A stretch of 64,000 nt of DNA. It comes from an uncultured delta proteobacterium. GTDB taxonomy: Bacteria > Desulfobacterota > Desulfovibrionia > Desulfovibrionales > Desulfovibrionaceae. A model generated the notes under the pieces. The model was not told where the DNA came from. It searched no databases and saw only the letters and a list, made by a program, of their open reading frames with translations. The stretch is from the NCBI GenBank assembly GCA_903835685.1, contig CAILNX010000043.1, forward strand, positions 62,001 to 126,000. The letters run 5' to 3'. Positions within the stretch are counted from its first letter, which is position 1, and every line of letters begins with the position of its first letter. Position numbers and translations under genes: made by a program. Positions 51,807 to 61,796 of this stretch are shown here, one piece after another.

Positions 51807-52179
51807 TCGCCTGGCCCTTCGGGCGCCAGGGGGGGGCCGCATTCCCCTGCCGCCCGGGCAGGCCCCGTCCCGGGTTGTTCCGGAGCCTGGCCCCTGGCCG
51901 CAAACAGACCACCTGCCCCGCCAGAAGAGGGGTAAATGACACTATTGAATATTCAACAAAAACAACCAGACTCAACGACAAAATAATACACAAAAATGTT
52001 ATTTTCAACCAGATGACAGCCGGTGGTTTCACATATATGTAGCTTTTCTGCCAATCCCTGTTTGCCTGCCTCTGAAATAAAATCATTCCCCCAATTTTAT
52101 CTCATGATTCAAGCTGGTTGAAAAATCGAAAAAACCTGGCTGCACCATGCCCGGGCATCACCCTTGCATTGCCCCAGGC
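51807..52179 (+). other. Intergenic region upstream of the NifA-like gene
   Basis: No gene is seen in these 373 bases. The first 120 are GC-rich with a hairpin near 51812-51832 that lacks a T run. From about 51935 to 52130 the sequence is very AT-rich. It contains TTGAATATTCAA (51945-51956), a perfect 12-bp palindrome, ATTTTCAACCAG (52001-52012), and TTCAA-5-TTGAA (52108-52122), whose right part is the inverse of the second. These may be regulator sites for nifA. No sigma-54 promoter was found. Confidence 0.45.
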
Positions 52180-53745
52180 ATGACCACCACTGTCACCAGC
52201 CTGGAGCTTCAAGTCCTCTCCTCCATCAGCGGCATCATCGACAAGGCCTTGAGCCTGGACGAGGCCTTGAATGAGGTGCTGAAAATCCTCTCCGAGAACC
52301 TGAGCATGAAGCGGGCCACCATCACCTTGGAGGACCGGACCACCGGCACCCTGATCATCTGGGCCTCCCACGGGCTCTCCCCCGAGGAACAGAGCCGGGG
52401 GGTGTACCGGCTGGACGAGGGCGTCACCGGGAACATCTTCCGCACGGCCAAGCCCTACTGCGTGCGGGACGTGCGCAAGGACCCCCTGTTTCTGGACCGC
52501 ACCCGGGCCAGGAAGACCGAAACCCGGGCCGTATCCTTCATCGGCGTGCCCATCATGCTGCACGGCAAGCCCATCGGCGTGCTCAACGTGGACCGCCTGT
52601 TCGGGGACGAGGTGTCCTTTGCCGAGGACGTGCGCCTGCTCACGGTCGTAGCCACCCTGATCGCCCAGTTCATCAGCTTGAACGACCAGGTGGAGGAGCG
52701 GGTGGAAGGGCTCAAGATGGAGAACGTCTGGCTCAAATCCCGGCTGTCGCTGGGCTCGGGCGGGCCGTACATCGTGGGTTCCAGCCAGGCCATGCAGGAC
52801 GTGCAGCGCAAAATCGAGCGGGTGGCCGCGACCAAGGCCACGGTCCTGCTTCTGGGCGAGTCCGGCACGGGCAAGACCTTGATCGCCCACACCATCCACG
52901 ACCTTTCCGACCGCAAGACCTTCCCCTTCATCAAGGTCAATTGCGCGGCCATCCCGGACACGCTCATCGAGTCAGAGCTCTTTGGCCACGAGCGGGGGGC
53001 CTACACCGGGGCCACCTCGGCCAAGCCCGGCCGCTTCGAGGACGCCCACAAGGGCACCATCTTCCTGGACGAGATCGGGGAGCTGCCCCTGGCCGTGCAG
53101 GCCAAGCTCCTGCGCGTGCTCCAGGACCGGGAGTTTGAGCGCCTGGGCTCCAACGCCACCAAGAAGGTGGACGTGCGCATCATCACGGCCACGAACAAGG
53201 ACCTGGAGCGCCTGGTGGAGGCCGACCTGTTCCGGGCCGACCTGTTCTACCGGCTGAAAGTCTTCCCCATCCAGGTCCCGCCCCTGCGCGAGCGGCCCGA
53301 GGACATCCCCAAGCTCCTGAACCACTTCCTCCAGAAGGCGGCCAAGGAGTACAACCGCTCCCTGTCCTTCACCCCCGAGGCCTTGGCCCTGCTCAAGGCC
53401 CATCCCTGGCCGGGAAACGCCCGGGAGATGGAGAACCTGGTGGAGCGGCTGGTCATCATGGTGGACGGGGTGAGGATCGCGGCCGAGCATGTCCGGGCCT
53501 GCATGGACGAGGGCCAGCGCGAGATCCCGGCCCCCACGGTCCAGGCCGCCTCCCTGCCCAAGCCCCTGCGGGAGTTGGAGCGCGACGAGGTGGTGGCCGC
53601 CCTGCGCCGCAACGGCTGGGTCCAGCACCAGGCCGCCCGGGAACTGGCCATCACCGACCGCCAGATGGGCTACCGGGTCAAGAAGTACCAGTTGGACGTG
53701 GTCATCGCCACGGAGCGCATGCGCCTGCGCACGGCGCTACGCTGA
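52180..53745 (+). CDS. nifA: Sigma-54-dependent activator, NifA type (GAF - AAA+ - Fis)
   Basis: A 521-residue enhancer-binding protein. Residues 15-170 form a GAF domain. The AAA+ domain has Walker A GESGTGKT near 226-233, the sigma-54-contacting loop GAYTGA near 273-278 (Tyr replaces the usual Phe), and Walker [13 protein letters not shown] Fis-type helix-turn-helix lies near 484-505 ([16 protein letters not shown]). The Cys-rich linker of oxygen-sensing NifA proteins is absent. Its place beside P-II and nif genes supports the NifA call; another sigma-54 activator remains possible. Start could also be 52147; neither has a strong ribosome site. Confidence 0.85.
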
Positions 53746-53828: not shown

Positions 53829-54605
53829 CTAGGCCAGGGGCTCCCCGGCCCGCAGTCTGGCCCGCATGACCCCGAAGACCTCCTCCAGAGAGGACAGCCG
53901 CTGCAAGACTCCCGCTTCTTCCGTGGTGCGGCGCAGGACCTTGCGCACGGCCCCGTTCTCGAACACCAGGCGGCGGTCGGCGGACAGGGCCAGGACCGGG
54001 TCGTGGGTGGCCATGACGATGATCTTGTCGCTTGAGGCCAGAAGTTTCATGGCCCGGCCCTTGTCGATACCCGCGTTCTCGATCTCGTCAATGAGCAGGA
54101 CCGGGGACCAACTGAGGAGGGCCGTGTCCGCGATCATCAGCGCCCGGGACTGACCGCCCGAGAGCTGGGTGAGCTGGGTCCCGGGGGCAAAGGGCTCCCC
54201 GGCCAGGGCGTTGGCGGCCGCGAACACCCGGTCCACCACGGCCTCCTGATCGTCCACCTCCCGGCTGGCGGCATGGGCGGCCAGGAAATCATCCACGCGC
54301 ATGTCCAAGACGAAATTCATGTTCTGGGTGAGCTGGGCCACCAGGCGGCCCTGAAGGGCGAAGCGCTCGTCGGACGTGGGCGGGGCCCCGTTCAGGAGCA
54401 CCCGGCGGCCCGTGGGCGTGTCCGCCTCGGCCAGGGACTCGATGTCCGAGAGGAAGCGGCTTTTCCCTGAGCCCGTGGGGCCGAGCAGGGCCGTGATCTG
54501 GCCGGGCGCAAGCACGATGTCCACGGCCTCGGCCAGGCCGCTCTTGTCCTGACCGGCCGTGACCGTGAGGCTGGCCAGGGTGGAGAAGCGGCGCTCAGCG
54601 GTCAT
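53829..54605 (-). CDS. ABC-type ATPase without a permease partner
   Basis: A 258-residue ABC ATPase. Walker A is GPTGSGKS (42-49), a Q-loop follows near residue 91, the signature is LSGGQ (148-152), Walker B is VLLIDEIENAG (169-179), which departs from the common LDEPT form, and the switch His is 201 in MATHDP. No membrane subunit gene is present on either side. It overlaps the GTPase gene upstream by 11 bases, so the two are translated together. The trio probably works in the cytoplasm; a role in metal or anion delivery to nitrogenase assembly is inferred from context only. Confidence 0.85.
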   Translation of the reverse strand: MTAERRFSTLASLTVTAGQDKSGLAEAVDIVLAPGQITALLGPTGSGKSRFLSDIESLAEADTPTGRRVLLNGAPPTSDERFALQGRLVAQLTQNMNFVLDMRVDDFLAAHAASREVDDQEAVVDRVFAAANALAGEPFAPGTQLTQLSGGQSRALMIADTALLSWSPVLLIDEIENAGIDKGRAMKLLASSDKIIVMATHDPVLALSADRRLVFENGAVRKVLRRTTEEAGVLQRLSSLEEVFGVMRARLRAGEPLA

Positions 54606-55290
54606 GGGAAAACACAACCTTTTTCACGTTTCCCTTCTGATAGCGGCCGCCGATGCGGGTCTCGCTCAGGCAATAGGAGCACACGGCCGCGGGCATGGTG
54701 AAGCGCAGCTTCATGTCCGCCACGCTTTCGATGTCCGGGGCCTGGGCCAGGATGGCGGCCAGTTCCCCGCAGCCCTGGCCGGTGAGGCCGTTTATGTGGC
54801 GGATGACCGCCCGGCCGTTCATCTGGCGGATGCGGTGGCGGTAGACCTCCCGCTCGGCCTGGGAGACCAGGTCGCCCTTGGTCACCAGGACCACGTCGGC
54901 CATGCGCAGCATAGGACCGATCTTCCCGGGCGCGTCGATGCCCATGAGATTGTCCACCACGCACAGGGCCAAGGCCCCGCGCAGGTGCGGGGAGCAGCGG
55001 CAGCACAGCCCGGCCGTCTCCAGCACGCAGCACTCGGCCCGGGCCTGACTGGCCCAGGCAAAGGCCTCCTCCAGGTTGGTGGCGTAGAAATGGTCCGGGC
55101 ACAGGCCCCCGGCCAGGGCCACGACCACGGGAATCCCGGCTGCCCGGTACACCTCGTCGTCCCGGGTCTGGAGGCAGTCGAACTTGACCACGGCGCAGGC
55201 CACCCCGGACTGCGCAAGCTTTTGGCAGGTCCGGCTCATGACCGAGGTCTTGCCGCAGGACGGGGGTCCGGCCACAGTGACCAGCTTCAC
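54595..55290 (-). CDS. Cys-rich P-loop GTPase (G3E/HypB-like) near nifB
   Basis: A 231-residue nucleotide-binding protein. Walker A is GPPSCGKTS (8-16), switch-like Asp residues lie at 39 and 44-45, and the base-recognition motif is TKGD (137-140). It has two Cys clusters, CCRC at 96-99 and CSYC at 204-207, and many other Cys. The general plan recalls HypB, UreG and CobW metallochaperone GTPases, where a Cys motif near the P-loop domain binds metal, but it is not a close match to any of them. It starts at GTG, overlapping the stop of the binding-protein gene (GTGA), behind a GGAGG site. Confidence 0.75.
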   Translation of the reverse strand: MKLVTVAGPPSCGKTSVMSRTCQKLAQSGVACAVVKFDCLQTRDDEVYRAAGIPVVVALAGGLCPDHFYATNLEEAFAWASQARAECCVLETAGLCCRCSPHLRGALALCVVDNLMGIDAPGKIGPMLRMADVVLVTKGDLVSQAEREVYRHRIRQMNGRAVIRHINGLTGQGCGELAAILAQAPDIESVADMKLRFTMPAAVCSYCLSETRIGGRYQKGNVKKVVFSHDR

Positions 55291-56315
55291 GCCCCCTCCT
55301 TCTGCACCTGGCGGAACAGGGCGGCCATCTCGTCGCGCAGGCGGTTCACCTCGTGGGCGGCGACAAAGTCCCAGCCCAGCCATTTGATCCGGGCCTCGGA
55401 CGGAAACAGGGAGGGGCCGGTGTCGCCCAGGGGCATGAACAGCCGGGCGCTCTCGATGGCCGGGAATCCTTGGGTGAAAAAAGTGATGAGCGGGGCCAGG
55501 CGCGCCCGCTCCTTCTTGCGGGCCAGGAAATACAGGGGACTGGCGGCCGCGCCGTCCTTGGGCCAGATGACCCGCACATGGGGCGGGTGCTTGGTGCTCA
55601 AGGCGAAGAACACGGGCATGATGGAGATGGCCCCGGCTGCGGCGTCAGACCCACCGGCCAGCTTGGCCAGGGTGGAGGAATGGGCCAGGCCCTTGGTGTT
55701 CTTGGCCAAGGCCCGGATGCCTTCCGGGCCGAAATCCTTGTAGATGTTCAGGAGCACGGCGTCGGCCATGTCGTCCCCGTCCCCGCACATGACGATCTTC
55801 CCCTGATAGCGCGGATGGAGCAGATCCTCCCAGGCCCGGGGCAGGGGCAGGCCGCTTAAGGACTTCTCGTCCACCACCAGGATGTACGGCGTGACCCCGT
55901 ACACCGTGTAGCAGCCCGCCGGATCAAGGAGCCCGGCCTGCTCGTACAGGGGGTTCACCTTGTCCGGCAGCACGGCCTGGAACACCCCGGCGGACACGTG
56001 GCGGTCCACGAACTCCTTGCGCCAGAAATCCCCGAACCCGATGGAGGCGATGACCCCGGGCAGCCGGTCCGGGTCGCGCTCCTGGTACACCGGGTCATAG
56101 GGGTCGATGGAGGTGCAGCCCATGGGGATGTGTACCCGAAGCGGCCCGTTCTCGTCCGCGTGTTCCTGGGCGATGGACTCCACGGCGTCCCGCACCGAGA
56201 GCTTCACCGGGCAGGGGGCGTAGAGCAGCAGGTCCACGGGCTTGTCCGGCCCCGGCTCCGAATCCTCCCGGCCCATGCGGCGGATGGAGACCATCAGATC
56301 CTCAAGTCCGCTCAT
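55287..56315 (-). CDS. Substrate-binding-protein fold lacking a signal peptide
   Basis: A 342-residue protein resembling type II periplasmic binding proteins (iron or molybdate type): LLYAPCPVKLS near residues 30-40, a TVYGVTPYILVVDE hinge strand near 130, and a second lobe ending near residue 330. The N-terminus is polar (SGLEDLMVSIRRMG) with no Sec signal, lipobox or membrane helix, so it should stay in the cytoplasm. This is unusual for the fold. The conserved Cys in APCPVK and one in PMGCTS could take part in ligand binding. The ATG at 56315 follows GGAG; it begins the three-gene coupled set. Confidence 0.75.
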   Translation of the reverse strand: MSGLEDLMVSIRRMGREDSEPGPDKPVDLLLYAPCPVKLSVRDAVESIAQEHADENGPLRVHIPMGCTSIDPYDPVYQERDPDRLPGVIASIGFGDFWRKEFVDRHVSAGVFQAVLPDKVNPLYEQAGLLDPAGCYTVYGVTPYILVVDEKSLSGLPLPRAWEDLLHPRYQGKIVMCGDGDDMADAVLLNIYKDFGPEGIRALAKNTKGLAHSSTLAKLAGGSDAAAGAISIMPVFFALSTKHPPHVRVIWPKDGAAASPLYFLARKKERARLAPLITFFTQGFPAIESARLFMPLGDTGPSLFPSEARIKWLGWDFVAAHEVNRLRDEMAALFRQVQKEGA

Positions 56316-56540: not shown

Positions 56541-56795
56541 CTAATCCTCGGTTTCCCCGTAGGTGCGCACGCTGGCGATCTGACACCAGTCATAATAGGT
56601 GTTGACCATCTCCTTGCCTTTCTTCTCGGTGATGCGCAGAAACTCTTCGCCCAGAAAAATGGTGGCTGACTCATAGATCCGGCCCTCGTTGATCTGAAGT
56701 TTCAGGCCCTTGCGGGTCTTGCGGGACAGGGTCCCATGCACCGGGGTGGAGGCGTATTCAAAGGCTTTTTCCCAGGTGGTCTTGGCTGTGGCCAT
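56541..56795 (-). CDS. 84-residue protein of unknown function after nifB
   Basis: A small soluble protein I do not recognise. It begins TTWEKAFEYASTPVHGTLSR, has a basic middle, then an acidic C-terminal half with EEFLRITEKKGKE and a single Cys in YDWCQIASV. It starts 46 bases after nifB with a GAGG site and appears to be the last gene of the nif transcript before the terminator. Position argues for a role in nitrogenase maturation or regulation, but no motif shows it. Confidence 0.7.
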   Translation of the reverse strand: MATAKTTWEKAFEYASTPVHGTLSRKTRKGLKLQINEGRIYESATIFLGEEFLRITEKKGKEMVNTYYDWCQIASVRTYGETED

Positions 56796-56841: not shown

Positions 56842-58113
56842 TTACATGCAGCTCTTGCCCCCGCCCGAGCAGCAGGCCCCGCCGATGCCCTTCTTGCGCC
56901 CGCGCAGGGCCTCCAGGTTGCCCGAGCCGTACACGGCCGCCAGCGCGGTCTCGATGAAGCCCGAGCAATCGTGGACCGGCACGCCGTGCTCCTCCATGAG
57001 CATCTTGGGGGTCTCGCCAGCGGCAGCCACCAGCACGGCCCGGCAATCCTTCAGGGTGCGGGCCAGTTGCTCCCAGCGCTTGGGGCCGTTGCCCGTGGGA
57101 GGGGCGGCCCGTTCGTCCACCAGCCTGAACACCCCGTCCACCTGGCCCCAGATCTGGAACCGGGTGGCCTCGCCCAGATGCTGGTTGACGAGCATGCCCT
57201 CGCGGGTGGCCACGGCCACGTAGGGCTTGGTCTCGTCCATGCCCAGAACCATGGTGGAGCAGGACTTGAGAATGGGGGCCAGCTCGGTGGAGCGGTCATG
57301 GCAGAGCAGGCCCACGGCGTCGGCCCGGCAACGGCGGCAATGGGTCATCTGGGGCAGGTAGACCTCGGCCTTGACCCGCAAGTCCGCGATGAACTCCTTG
57401 GCCGGTTCCGGGACCCCGGCAAAGGGCGTGTCCGCATTGGGATACATGGGGATCAGGTTGTGCAGGTCCGCGCCCAGCTCAGCCACGGTGCGGGCCACTT
57501 CCAGGACGTGATGGTCGTTCACCCCGGGGATGACGATGGTGTTGATCTTCACGGTGATGCCCGCAGCCTTCAAGGCCTTGATGGACTGCAACTGGCGATC
57601 CAGCAGCAGTTCCGCGCCCTTGCCGTCCCGGTACAGGACCTTGCCGTCGCGCACCCAGCTATAAATCTTGGCGCCCACGGCCGGGTCCACGGCGTTCAGG
57701 GTCACGGTCACATGGCTGACCCCGATCTCGGCCAACTCGTCCACGTAGGTGGGCAGGGCCAGGCCGTTGGTGGACAGGCAGAAGATGAGCTGGGGATACT
57801 TTTCCTTGATCAGCCGCATGGTGCGCAGGGTCTCCGGGGCGTTGGCAAAGGGGTCGCCGGGTCCGGCGATCCCCACCACGGTGATGCGCGGCTCCTTCTT
57901 CAGCACCTCGTCCAGGTAATGCAGGGCCTGGGCCGGGCCGAGCACGGCGCTGGACACCCCGGGCCGGGACTCGTTCACGCAGTCGTACTTGCGGTTGCAG
58001 TAATTGCACATGATATTGCACTTGGGGGCCACGGGCAGATGCACCCGGCCGCAACTGCCGGAAGACTCCTTGTTGAAACAGGGATGCTTGCTGAAGTCCT
58101 TGGTCGCGTTCAT
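56842..58113 (-). CDS. nifB: FeMo-cofactor precursor synthase NifB
   Basis: A 423-residue radical SAM enzyme that fuses two 4Fe-4S units and a carbide to make NifB-co (L-cluster). The SAM cluster motif is C-x3-C-x2-C at residues 32-39 (KCNIMCNYC). A GPGDPFANAPETL block follows. From about residue 300 a NifX/NafY-type domain is fused, as in many bacteria. The extreme C-terminus is Cys-rich (GGACCSGGGKSCM), which could bind a cluster. ATG at 58113 is chosen by its AAAGGAG site; it is 10 bases after nifN. Confidence 0.96.
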   Translation of the reverse strand: MNATKDFSKHPCFNKESSGSCGRVHLPVAPKCNIMCNYCNRKYDCVNESRPGVSSAVLGPAQALHYLDEVLKKEPRITVVGIAGPGDPFANAPETLRTMRLIKEKYPQLIFCLSTNGLALPTYVDELAEIGVSHVTVTLNAVDPAVGAKIYSWVRDGKVLYRDGKGAELLLDRQLQSIKALKAAGITVKINTIVIPGVNDHHVLEVARTVAELGADLHNLIPMYPNADTPFAGVPEPAKEFIADLRVKAEVYLPQMTHCRRCRADAVGLLCHDRSTELAPILKSCSTMVLGMDETKPYVAVATREGMLVNQHLGEATRFQIWGQVDGVFRLVDERAAPPTGNGPKRWEQLARTLKDCRAVLVAAAGETPKMLMEEHGVPVHDCSGFIETALAAVYGSGNLEALRGRKKGIGGACCSGGGKSCM

Positions 58114-58123
58114 GGCCACTCCT

Positions 58124-60972: not shown

Positions 60973-61437
60973 TTAAAGCAGGTGGCGCAGGCAGACCAGG
61001 TTGGTCCGGGTCCAGCCCAGCCGCTGATAAAAATCCAAGGCCGCCTCGTTGGTCCGGTCGGCCAGAAGCTGCATACGGGTGGCCCCGCACTTCTCGGCCC
61101 AGGCGGCCAGGGCCGTGATAAGCAAGCGTCCGATCCCCCGGCCCCGGGCGGACTCATGCACCACCACGTCCTCCACCAGCACCGAGGCCGAGCCCTGGGC
61201 CGTGGAGACCACCAGCTGGCCCACGCACATGCCCAGTATCTGTCCATTGTCTTGGCCCGCATCCTCGGCCACCAGCACATGGTTCTGGCAGGGGTCGTCC
61301 AGGAGCAGGGACAGGCCCCGGGCCTGGCGGGCCGGGTCCGGGGAGAAGTCCTTCTCGATGGAGAACAGGGTCTGGAGCAGACTGGTCATGGCTTCTATGT
61401 CCTGCCGGGTGGCGGTTCGGATGATGACGCCGCTCAT
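60973..61437 (-). CDS. GNAT-family N-acetyltransferase within the nif run
   Basis: A 154-residue single GNAT domain. It begins VIIRTATRQDIEAMTSLLQTLF, and the acetyl-CoA loop is VHESARGRGIGRLLI near residues 90-105 (pattern R/Q-x-x-G-x-G/A). The final strand-helix DRTNEAALDFYQRLGW is typical. Its acceptor is unknown; it might modify a nif protein or a small molecule. An AAAGGAAG site precedes the ATG at 61437. It lies between a ferredoxin gene and nifE on the same strand. Confidence 0.88.
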   Translation of the reverse strand: MSGVIIRTATRQDIEAMTSLLQTLFSIEKDFSPDPARQARGLSLLLDDPCQNHVLVAEDAGQDNGQILGMCVGQLVVSTAQGSASVLVEDVVVHESARGRGIGRLLITALAAWAEKCGATRMQLLADRTNEAALDFYQRLGWTRTNLVCLRHLL

Positions 61438-61455
61438 GAAGCTTCCTTTGGTGTC

Positions 61456-61488
61456 CGGGCGGACCGCGCTGGTCTCGCGGCCCGCCCG
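61456..61488 (-). other. Intercistronic hairpin between the ferredoxin and acetyltransferase genes
   Basis: CGGGCGG-A-CCGCG (61456-61468) pairs with CGCGG-C-CCGCCCG (61476-61488), one A/C mismatch, 7-base loop. No T run follows. It could stabilise the upstream nif mRNA or give partial termination. Confidence 0.6.
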
Positions 61489-61493
61489 AGGGA

Positions 61494-61796
61494 TCAGGCC
61501 AGGAGGTACTGCTCGCAGACTTCCCCGCTCTCCAGGGCGTCCAGGACCGCGTCGATGGCCTCTTCGCCTTCCACTTTCTGGTACCAGGTGCCCTGGGGGT
61601 AGATGACCACGACCGGGCCGTTGTCGCACTGCTTCAGGCAGCCGGTGGTGGAGATGAGCGCGTCCAAACCCCGGCTCAAGATCTCTTCCTCCATGTACTG
61701 GAGCATGCCGTCGTTCTTCTTGTGGCACACGCCCTTGGGGTCTCCCTTGACCCGGAAGCTGGCGCAGACCAGGATGTGATGGGTGGGCTTTTCCAT
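61494..61796 (-). CDS. 2Fe-2S thioredoxin-like ferredoxin in the nif run
   Basis: A 100-residue thioredoxin-fold ferredoxin. Four Cys, at residues 11, 24, 53 and 57 (ILVCAS, GVCHKK, TGCLKQC), match the cluster ligands of this class, related to NuoE and the Shethna-type proteins encoded in some nif clusters. The following DNGPVVVIYPQGTWY block is also typical. It may donate electrons to nitrogenase or protect it from oxygen. It starts 9 bases after nifK with a GGAG site. Confidence 0.9.
   Translation of the reverse strand: MEKPTHHILVCASFRVKGDPKGVCHKKNDGMLQYMEEEILSRGLDALISTTGCLKQCDNGPVVVIYPQGTWYQKVEGEEAIDAVLDALESGEVCEQYLLA

Follow-up and report, generated by a model that had tools for sequence, protein, structure and literature searches.

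What might a binding protein without a signal peptide, a cysteine-rich GTPase and an ATP-binding cassette (ABC) ATPase without a permease be doing together at the end of a run of nitrogenase genes? The question is raised by a trio of genes at 53829-56315 (minus strand) in a 64,000-nucleotide stretch of DNA from an uncultured delta proteobacterium of the Desulfovibrionaceae (GenBank assembly GCA_903835685.1, contig CAILNX010000043.1, positions 62,001 to 126,000 of the forward strand), the whole of which is called the window here. The genes follow one another in the order binding protein, GTPase, ABC ATPase, and reading of the bases confirmed that all of them overlap, by 4 and 11 bases, as an earlier note on this DNA had claimed:

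55287..56315, minus strand: binding protein (SBP_bac_6, FbpA-like fold) without a signal peptide, 342 amino acids (open reading frame (ORF), Pfam, fold, hydropathy)
55287..55290, minus strand: 4-base overlap of the binding-protein stop and the GTPase start (bases read)
54595..55290, minus strand: G3E-type GTPase related to HypB and UreG, GTG start at 55290, 231 amino acids (ORF, Pfam, fold)
54595..54605, minus strand: 11-base overlap of the GTPase end and the ATPase start (bases read)
53829..54605, minus strand: ABC-type ATPase without a permease, ATG start at 54605, 258 amino acids (ORF, Pfam, alignment)

We give roughly even credence to the view that the products of these genes form a soluble metal relay in the cytosol, driven by nucleoside triphosphates (NTPs), which in the window's phylum supplies molybdenum (Mo) to nitrogenase. 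The joint action of the three proteins, the metal concerned, the direction of its transfer and its receiver are what we infer from the comparisons below. The metal or oxyanion role proposed in the earlier note we judge likely.

The three proteins of the trio

The binding protein matches SBP_bac_6 above the cut-off (Pfam, 9.7e-56), and its predicted fold (predicted local distance difference test (pLDDT) 88) lies nearest to P5PA, FutA and the ferric-binding proteins, with template modelling (TM) scores near 0.6. Family and fold are common to it and to FbpA, FutA and P5PA, from which it differs in having no signal peptide, a conserved PCPxK and no adjoining permease. Some of its relatives, again unlike these three, carry a DUF1858 domain (among the class 2 proteins described below, one is present in L053 and none in L113). 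The N-terminal hydropathy peak reaches 1.2-1.5 in 17 class-1 binding proteins, the window's included, as against 2.2-3.2 in five secreted ones, the sequence of each relative being taken from the start of its match to the window protein. None of the 17 has the hydrophobic N-terminus expected of the secreted binding protein of an ABC importer, and the earlier statement that the window protein has no signal peptide holds, with no sign of a missed one. Near the N-terminus PCPxK is invariant in 18 aligned rows, in which GCTS and CGDGD are nearly so.

The ATPase matches ABC_tran above the cut-off (Pfam, 7.3e-14) and, with Walker A, LSGGQ, Walker B and the H-loop all present, is a complete ABC ATPase by its motifs. 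The Walker B continuation DEIENAG, singled out in the window as unusual, is invariant in 17 aligned rows. In the ORF list of the window no permease adjoins the trio, which bears out the claim that the ATPase has no membrane partner; with neither a secreted binding protein nor a permease in the operon, the trio is indeed not built as an importer. SufC is described in passages of PMC9164220 as the soluble ABC ATPase of iron-sulphur (Fe-S) assembly, and the trio ATPase, being free of a permease and, as we propose, serving metal-centre assembly, resembles it in this respect. Unlike SufC, it has no SufB or SufD partner in its operon, and the SufC model is not among the 25 matches listed for it out of 140 matching families.

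The GTPase belongs to the G3E GTPases by its match to cobW/HypB/UreG (PF02492, 8.8e-12, 45.4 bits against a cut-off of 20.7), and lies below the equivalog cut-offs of both HypB (TIGR00073, 48.7 vs 121.2 bits) and UreG (TIGR00101, 23.5 vs 204.2 bits). Its predicted fold (pLDDT 79, and under 50 for residues 200-223, the CSYC tail) is nearest to UreG and HypB, with which it has in common the fold, the GTPase motifs and Cys/His motifs near the nucleotide site; its proposed role is likened to theirs as GTP-controlled metal carriers. It is set apart from them by falling under both NCBIfam cut-offs, by the extra conserved CxRC and CSYC, and by its coupling to a binding protein and an ABC ATPase, HypB and UreG being coupled instead to HypA or UreDEF. 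CPDH, AGLCxRC, TKGD and CSYC are invariant in an alignment of 20 GTPases, which besides the window's comprises 18 relatives with 74-81% identity to it and one with 52%, and the cysteine motifs remain so in ten rows with identity down to 46%; across the whole family the motifs are CPDH, AGLCxRCxP and CSYC. Of the two cysteine motifs first noticed in the window, CSYC is therefore conserved, whereas CCRC does not stand as a family motif, being the local form of a conserved CxRC that is usually CNRC. TKGD is the ordinary G4 base motif. The COG0523 GTPases are defined, in passages of PMC9164220, by a CxCC motif, in whose stead the window GTPase has CCRC and its relatives CxRC.

Distribution, promoters and the link to nitrogenase

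Among 149 genomes of the window's taxonomic family, class 1 GTPases (at least 73% identity) occur in 28, including the window genome (G000, 3.94 Mb). More distant GTPases (47-57%) account for 20 rows in the same genomes, and the two forms together for 47 genomes. NifB (TIGR01290) scores above the cut-off in 26 of the 28 class-1 genomes vs 59 of the 121 others (Fisher p=7e-6), a test that takes no account of shared ancestry or genome size. Of the two class-1 genomes without NifB, G026 is 84% complete and has part of nifH at the edge of a contig, and G129 is 66% complete; in class-1 genomes of other families NifB is found in 3/3. Co-occurrence of the trio with nifB, which the earlier note put forward as a check, is thus upheld at the level of genomes, and adjacency to nifB is not kept.

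A second association comes from the promoters. Upstream of the binding-protein match, within 400 bases, a sigma-54 site of the form [TC]GGCA[CT]-N5-TTGC[ATG] is present in 24/31 class-1 operons, where shuffles expect 0.06 and the opposite strand has none. Four further operons gave a site in 1/4, and so a total of 25/35 (L039, which has no upstream sequence, being left out of the count). A weighted sigma-54 score showed a weaker contrast, with values of at least 18 in 22/32 class-1 operons vs 7.5% of shuffles. The site was found in none of 28 class-2 operons (from the G344 order and others), four operons of the window's taxonomic family and 15 of Bacillota. Related sigma-54-type sites were picked up close to nifH by a looser pattern at 24 of 27 loci, 25 of these 27 loci coming from class-1 genomes; the trio pattern, in which a final C is excluded, matched nifH promoters in 1/30, the nifH form being TGGCAY-N5-TTGCC. 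TGT-N10-ACA enhancer sites for NifA occur in 1/24 trio promoters (0.82 expected), and no NifA enhancer motif or other palindrome common to trio and nifH promoters was found, so that control of the trio by NifA is no more than plausible.

In the window itself, the trio is the tail of a same-strand run nifD-nifK-ferredoxin-GNAT-nifE-nifN-nifB-84-amino-acid ORF, in which the gene names were assigned by eye and NifB additionally by TIGR01290. The features nearest to the trio are:

56842..58119, minus strand: nifB, upstream in the same gene run (TIGR01290)
56541..56795, minus strand: 84-amino-acid ORF between nifB and the trio (no match in the family-model searches)
52147..53745, plus strand: NifA-like sigma-54 activator, convergent with the trio (named by eye)

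Further upstream in the run, a GNAT acetyltransferase-like ORF (60973-61728, by eye) lies between the ferredoxin gene and nifE. The window trio has no sigma-54 site upstream of its own, and the nifH promoter of the window genome carries TGGCATGCCTCTTGCC; for these two reasons, and provided that the run is transcribed as a unit, the trio could be read from a nif promoter.

Beyond the window, 36 distinct class-1 loci were available (27 from the family set and nine more by contig), and two of them have a nif neighbourhood. In L035, from a Desulfomicrobium metagenome-assembled genome (MAG), a nifV-like gene whose protein scores below the TIGR02660 cut-off stands directly upstream of the trio, and nifH adjoins it. 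In L049, from a Syntrophobacteraceae MAG, nifH (25.5 kb), nifB (33.4 kb) and a nifA-like gene (35.1 kb) share one strand with the trio (41.5-44.0 kb), which lies downstream, ~7 kb from nifB and nifA. The other 34 loci showed no nif marker within the stretches examined, several of which are short, so that more may be missed. Linkage to nifB as a trait of the family was rejected on these counts.

At an E-value threshold of 1e-30 the family is found in 15/297 genomes of the window's phylum, in 38/141 of the order of genome G344 (which, by its gene arrangement, we take to be Geobacterales or near) and in 51/398 of the phylum of the Tissierellia genome G435 (here Bacillota). A tree built from 120 GTPases places class 1 (32 rows, the window's among them) on a branch of its own (100/100), and likewise the TonB-linked class 3 (10 rows, 99/98) and class 4 (13 rows, 100/100); the tree label 'Bacillota_other' takes in L116, which belongs to the window's phylum. 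In Bacillota, nifH is present in 8/28 family-bearing genomes once class-4-like ones are excluded vs 59/370 others (p 0.08), and in 5/23 class-4-like genomes. On these counts the trio family, taken as a whole, extends beyond nitrogenase. The family thus does occur in genomes lacking nif as far as its wider membership is concerned (Bacillota, 20/28), and this does not extend to class 1.

Class 3 comes from sulfate reducers (L057-L064, L114, L115), where an AraC regulator, the trio and a TonB receptor are found together, partly with a TauABC-like importer. Class 4 (L117, L118, L119, L253-L262) combines the ABC ATPase and a GTPase of the same type with an Fe-S-domain protein, which takes the place of the binding protein in 13/13 loci (Pfam FeS for one); a NifS-like gene is interposed in L118 and L262, and the class looks like a separate metal-cluster device. 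A GTPase relative at 52% identity lies in Fusobacterium vincentii (NZ_CP084075.1, 2085587-2086276), the sole match among 72,556 plasmid-collection records; this record, at 2.1 Mb, is probably a chromosome.

Molybdenum and importer genes near the trio

Neighbouring genes were surveyed with marker queries (TonB receptor, FecB/C/E, ModA/B/C, methyltransferase) named by eye from L110, L113, L116 and L057, and with family-model checks for ModA, the ModE repressor domain, NifH, NifD, NifK, ModD, FmdE, the HTH-PBP regulator and the methyltransferase; in the resulting gene maps some rows are antisense or overlong. Because ModC and FecE matches are often other ABC ATPases, mod genes were counted by ModA and ModB only, which lowers the class-1 count from 7/31 with ModC to 1/31.

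For class 2 trios of the G344 order, modA (TIGR01256) lies within 12 kb in 15/25 genomes from four families. It is present in 22/25 of these genomes, with 33 copies above the cut-off, and its chance proximity would be ~0.8% per genome, on the assumption of independent genomes, which these are not. Nif markers occur in 10/28 trio neighbourhoods of this order, two by a NifX-like match alone. In L225 the order is trio, ModE, ModA, ModB, ModC, NifH, NifD, NifK, with NifD and NifK above the Mo-nitrogenase cut-offs. Four loci (L110, L212, L213, L219) have nifH and a NifX-like gene beside the trio and no nifDK in the stretch, and the last three additionally have ModE, ModD and ModA (ModE and ModD being named by eye, and ModD of L219 by model). 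A lone nifH with a NifX-like gene and Mo genes by the trio may constitute a Mo-insertion set. The genomes of these four loci hold further nifH copies.

Similar associations are scattered elsewhere. L116, in the window's phylum, has its trio beside modABC and an HTH-PBP regulator, and L107 has modA/modB near the trio. In L113 and L216 the trio is accompanied by a FecBCD-type importer, a methyltransferase, FmdE and a TonB receptor (the last by marker in L216 and by eye in L113); L088 has FecBCE and FmdE beside class 1, and L094 has FecBCE near the trio. An FmdE-family gene, named after the operon of the Mo formylmethanofuran dehydrogenase, is thus grouped with a FecBCD-type importer near the trios of L088, L113 and L216. 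A FecC-type permease adjoins the trio in 7/26 Bacillota loci, most of the 26 having no informative marker, and by marker queries several Bacillota loci have no binding protein. One Bacillota stretch (L229) holds two GTPase-ATPase sets with FecE, FecB, FecC and a methyltransferase between them.

Wherever the importers near these relatives were read gene by gene, they had their own ATPase and their own secreted binding protein. Linkage to a permease is therefore partial rather than consistent, and the importers are separate from the trio where read. ModABC/ModE and FecBCD importers are recurrent neighbours in the G344 order and elsewhere, and possible suppliers of metal; unlike the trio, ModABC and FecBCD are importers in their own right, with their own genes.

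A proposed metal relay and its alternatives

In the relay that we propose, the metal would enter the cytosol through an importer, either ModABC or FecBCD together with a TonB receptor. There the binding protein would capture it as a small metal-containing anion, most probably molybdate, thiomolybdate or Mo bound to a ligand. The ABC ATPase would then power opening and release at the expense of ATP, and the Cys/His sites of the HypB/UreG-like GTPase would take the metal for a GTP-controlled hand-over, in nif-linked forms to NifH/NifEN. For the window's clade the most likely receiver would be the step that inserts Mo during assembly of the nitrogenase cofactor, at NifH/NifEN or on a NifX-like carrier. 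The conserved core would be the GTPase-ATPase pair, with an exchangeable capture part: a plain binding protein, a DUF1858 fusion or an Fe-S protein. A broader proposal, which we advance tentatively and hold to be somewhat less probable than not, is that a binding protein and an ATPase derived from an importer were relocated to the cytosol and combined there with a GTPase of the HypB type, forming an undescribed Mo route from the importer to NifH/NifEN in N2-fixing anaerobes, that the Bacillota and TonB-linked cousins do likewise for other metals or enzymes, and that the GTPase-ATPase pair, its capture proteins being interchangeable, is a general metal-insertion motor.

The link to nitrogenase suggested in the earlier note is supported by the NifB co-occurrence, the sigma-54 promoters, the modABC, ModE, nifH and nifHDK genes near G344-order trios, and L035 and L049; it is not supported by the neighbourhoods of most class-1 loci, nor by the many nif genomes that have no trio. 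Several observations, besides the neglect of ancestry and genome size in the co-occurrence tests, weigh against the proposed supply of Mo to nitrogenase. Class 1 seldom has nif genes nearby (2/36 loci outside the window), modA/modB stand beside it in just 1/36 loci, 10/35 of its operons have no sigma-54 site, and no enhancer motif common to the trio and nifH promoters was found. No class 1-3 GTPase is encoded in 43/85 NifB-positive genomes of the window's taxonomic family, so that nitrogenase can generally do without the trio. Since nearly all genomes of the G344 order have nifH (124/141), its co-occurrence there is little informative, and nifH is absent from the 20/28 Bacillota genomes mentioned above.

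The best-surviving alternative, which we nevertheless think rather unlikely, is that the trio forms the cytosolic end of chelate import and strips any metal from a metallophore or cofactor, nitrogenase being one customer among others. It would account for the operons that class 3 trios share with a TonB receptor (7/10 by marker) and partly with a TauABC-like importer, for the FecBCD-type importers by the trios of L110, L113, L216, L088, L094 and 7/26 Bacillota loci (FecC marker), and for the methyltransferases and FmdE that recur at those loci. Yet most class-1 loci have no importer inside the fetched stretch, and sigma-54 control together with NifB co-occurrence indicates nitrogen metabolism. 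Less probable again is a GTPase metallochaperone set for another metal (nickel, iron or cobalt) and enzyme, expressed under nitrogen starvation merely through the broad use of sigma-54: the closest relatives of the GTPase do handle nickel, most family-bearing Bacillota genomes have no nifH and no common NifA site was found, but in the G344 order the trio has Mo and nitrogenase genes for neighbours, and the GTPase scores far under the HypB and UreG cut-offs. A metal-sensing switch, in which the binding protein would sense molybdate and the two NTPases would signal to nif regulation, fits the nearby ModE, the NifA-like genes near the trio in the window and L049, and a trio that contains no output enzyme. 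We consider it improbable, since the trio has no DNA-binding or kinase part and the G3E families of known role, in passages of PMC9164220, mature metal sites. An ordinary importer with its permease encoded elsewhere is the least credible of all, for although the families of the binding protein and the ATPase are known chiefly from transport and the ATPase retains importer-like motifs, all 17 class-1 binding proteins have no hydrophobic N-terminus, linked permeases, where read, come with their own ATPase and secreted binding protein, and a G3E GTPase sits within the operon.

With regard to the proposed relay, many anaerobic diazotrophs are not known to have NifQ, and NifQ is not known to contain an NTPase. 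In PMC11605450 NifQ is described as the Mo donor between the importer and the iron-molybdenum cofactor of nitrogenase (FeMo-co), and this is the position in the pathway that the trio is proposed to share; unlike NifQ, the trio proteins come from unrelated families. NifQ matches were found in 0/50 genomes and likewise in 0/14 control genomes, and because the controls gave no match we make no claim of its absence. No description of the trio was found in the titles, abstract openings and some passages of the open literature, the scope of the search (subscription literature lay outside it), and the passages of PMC2700814, PMC2725144 and PMC10102598 seen make no mention of it. The parts are members of known families, and their soluble combination and its association with nif and mod genes appear to be undescribed.

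Taken together, a trio that is driven by sigma-54, associated with nif and, in relatives, linked to modABC is a concrete candidate for the delivery of Mo to the nitrogenase cofactor. If this is true, the binding protein and ATPase of an importer have been converted into a soluble machine, which would possibly be a missing part for transferring nitrogenase to new hosts.

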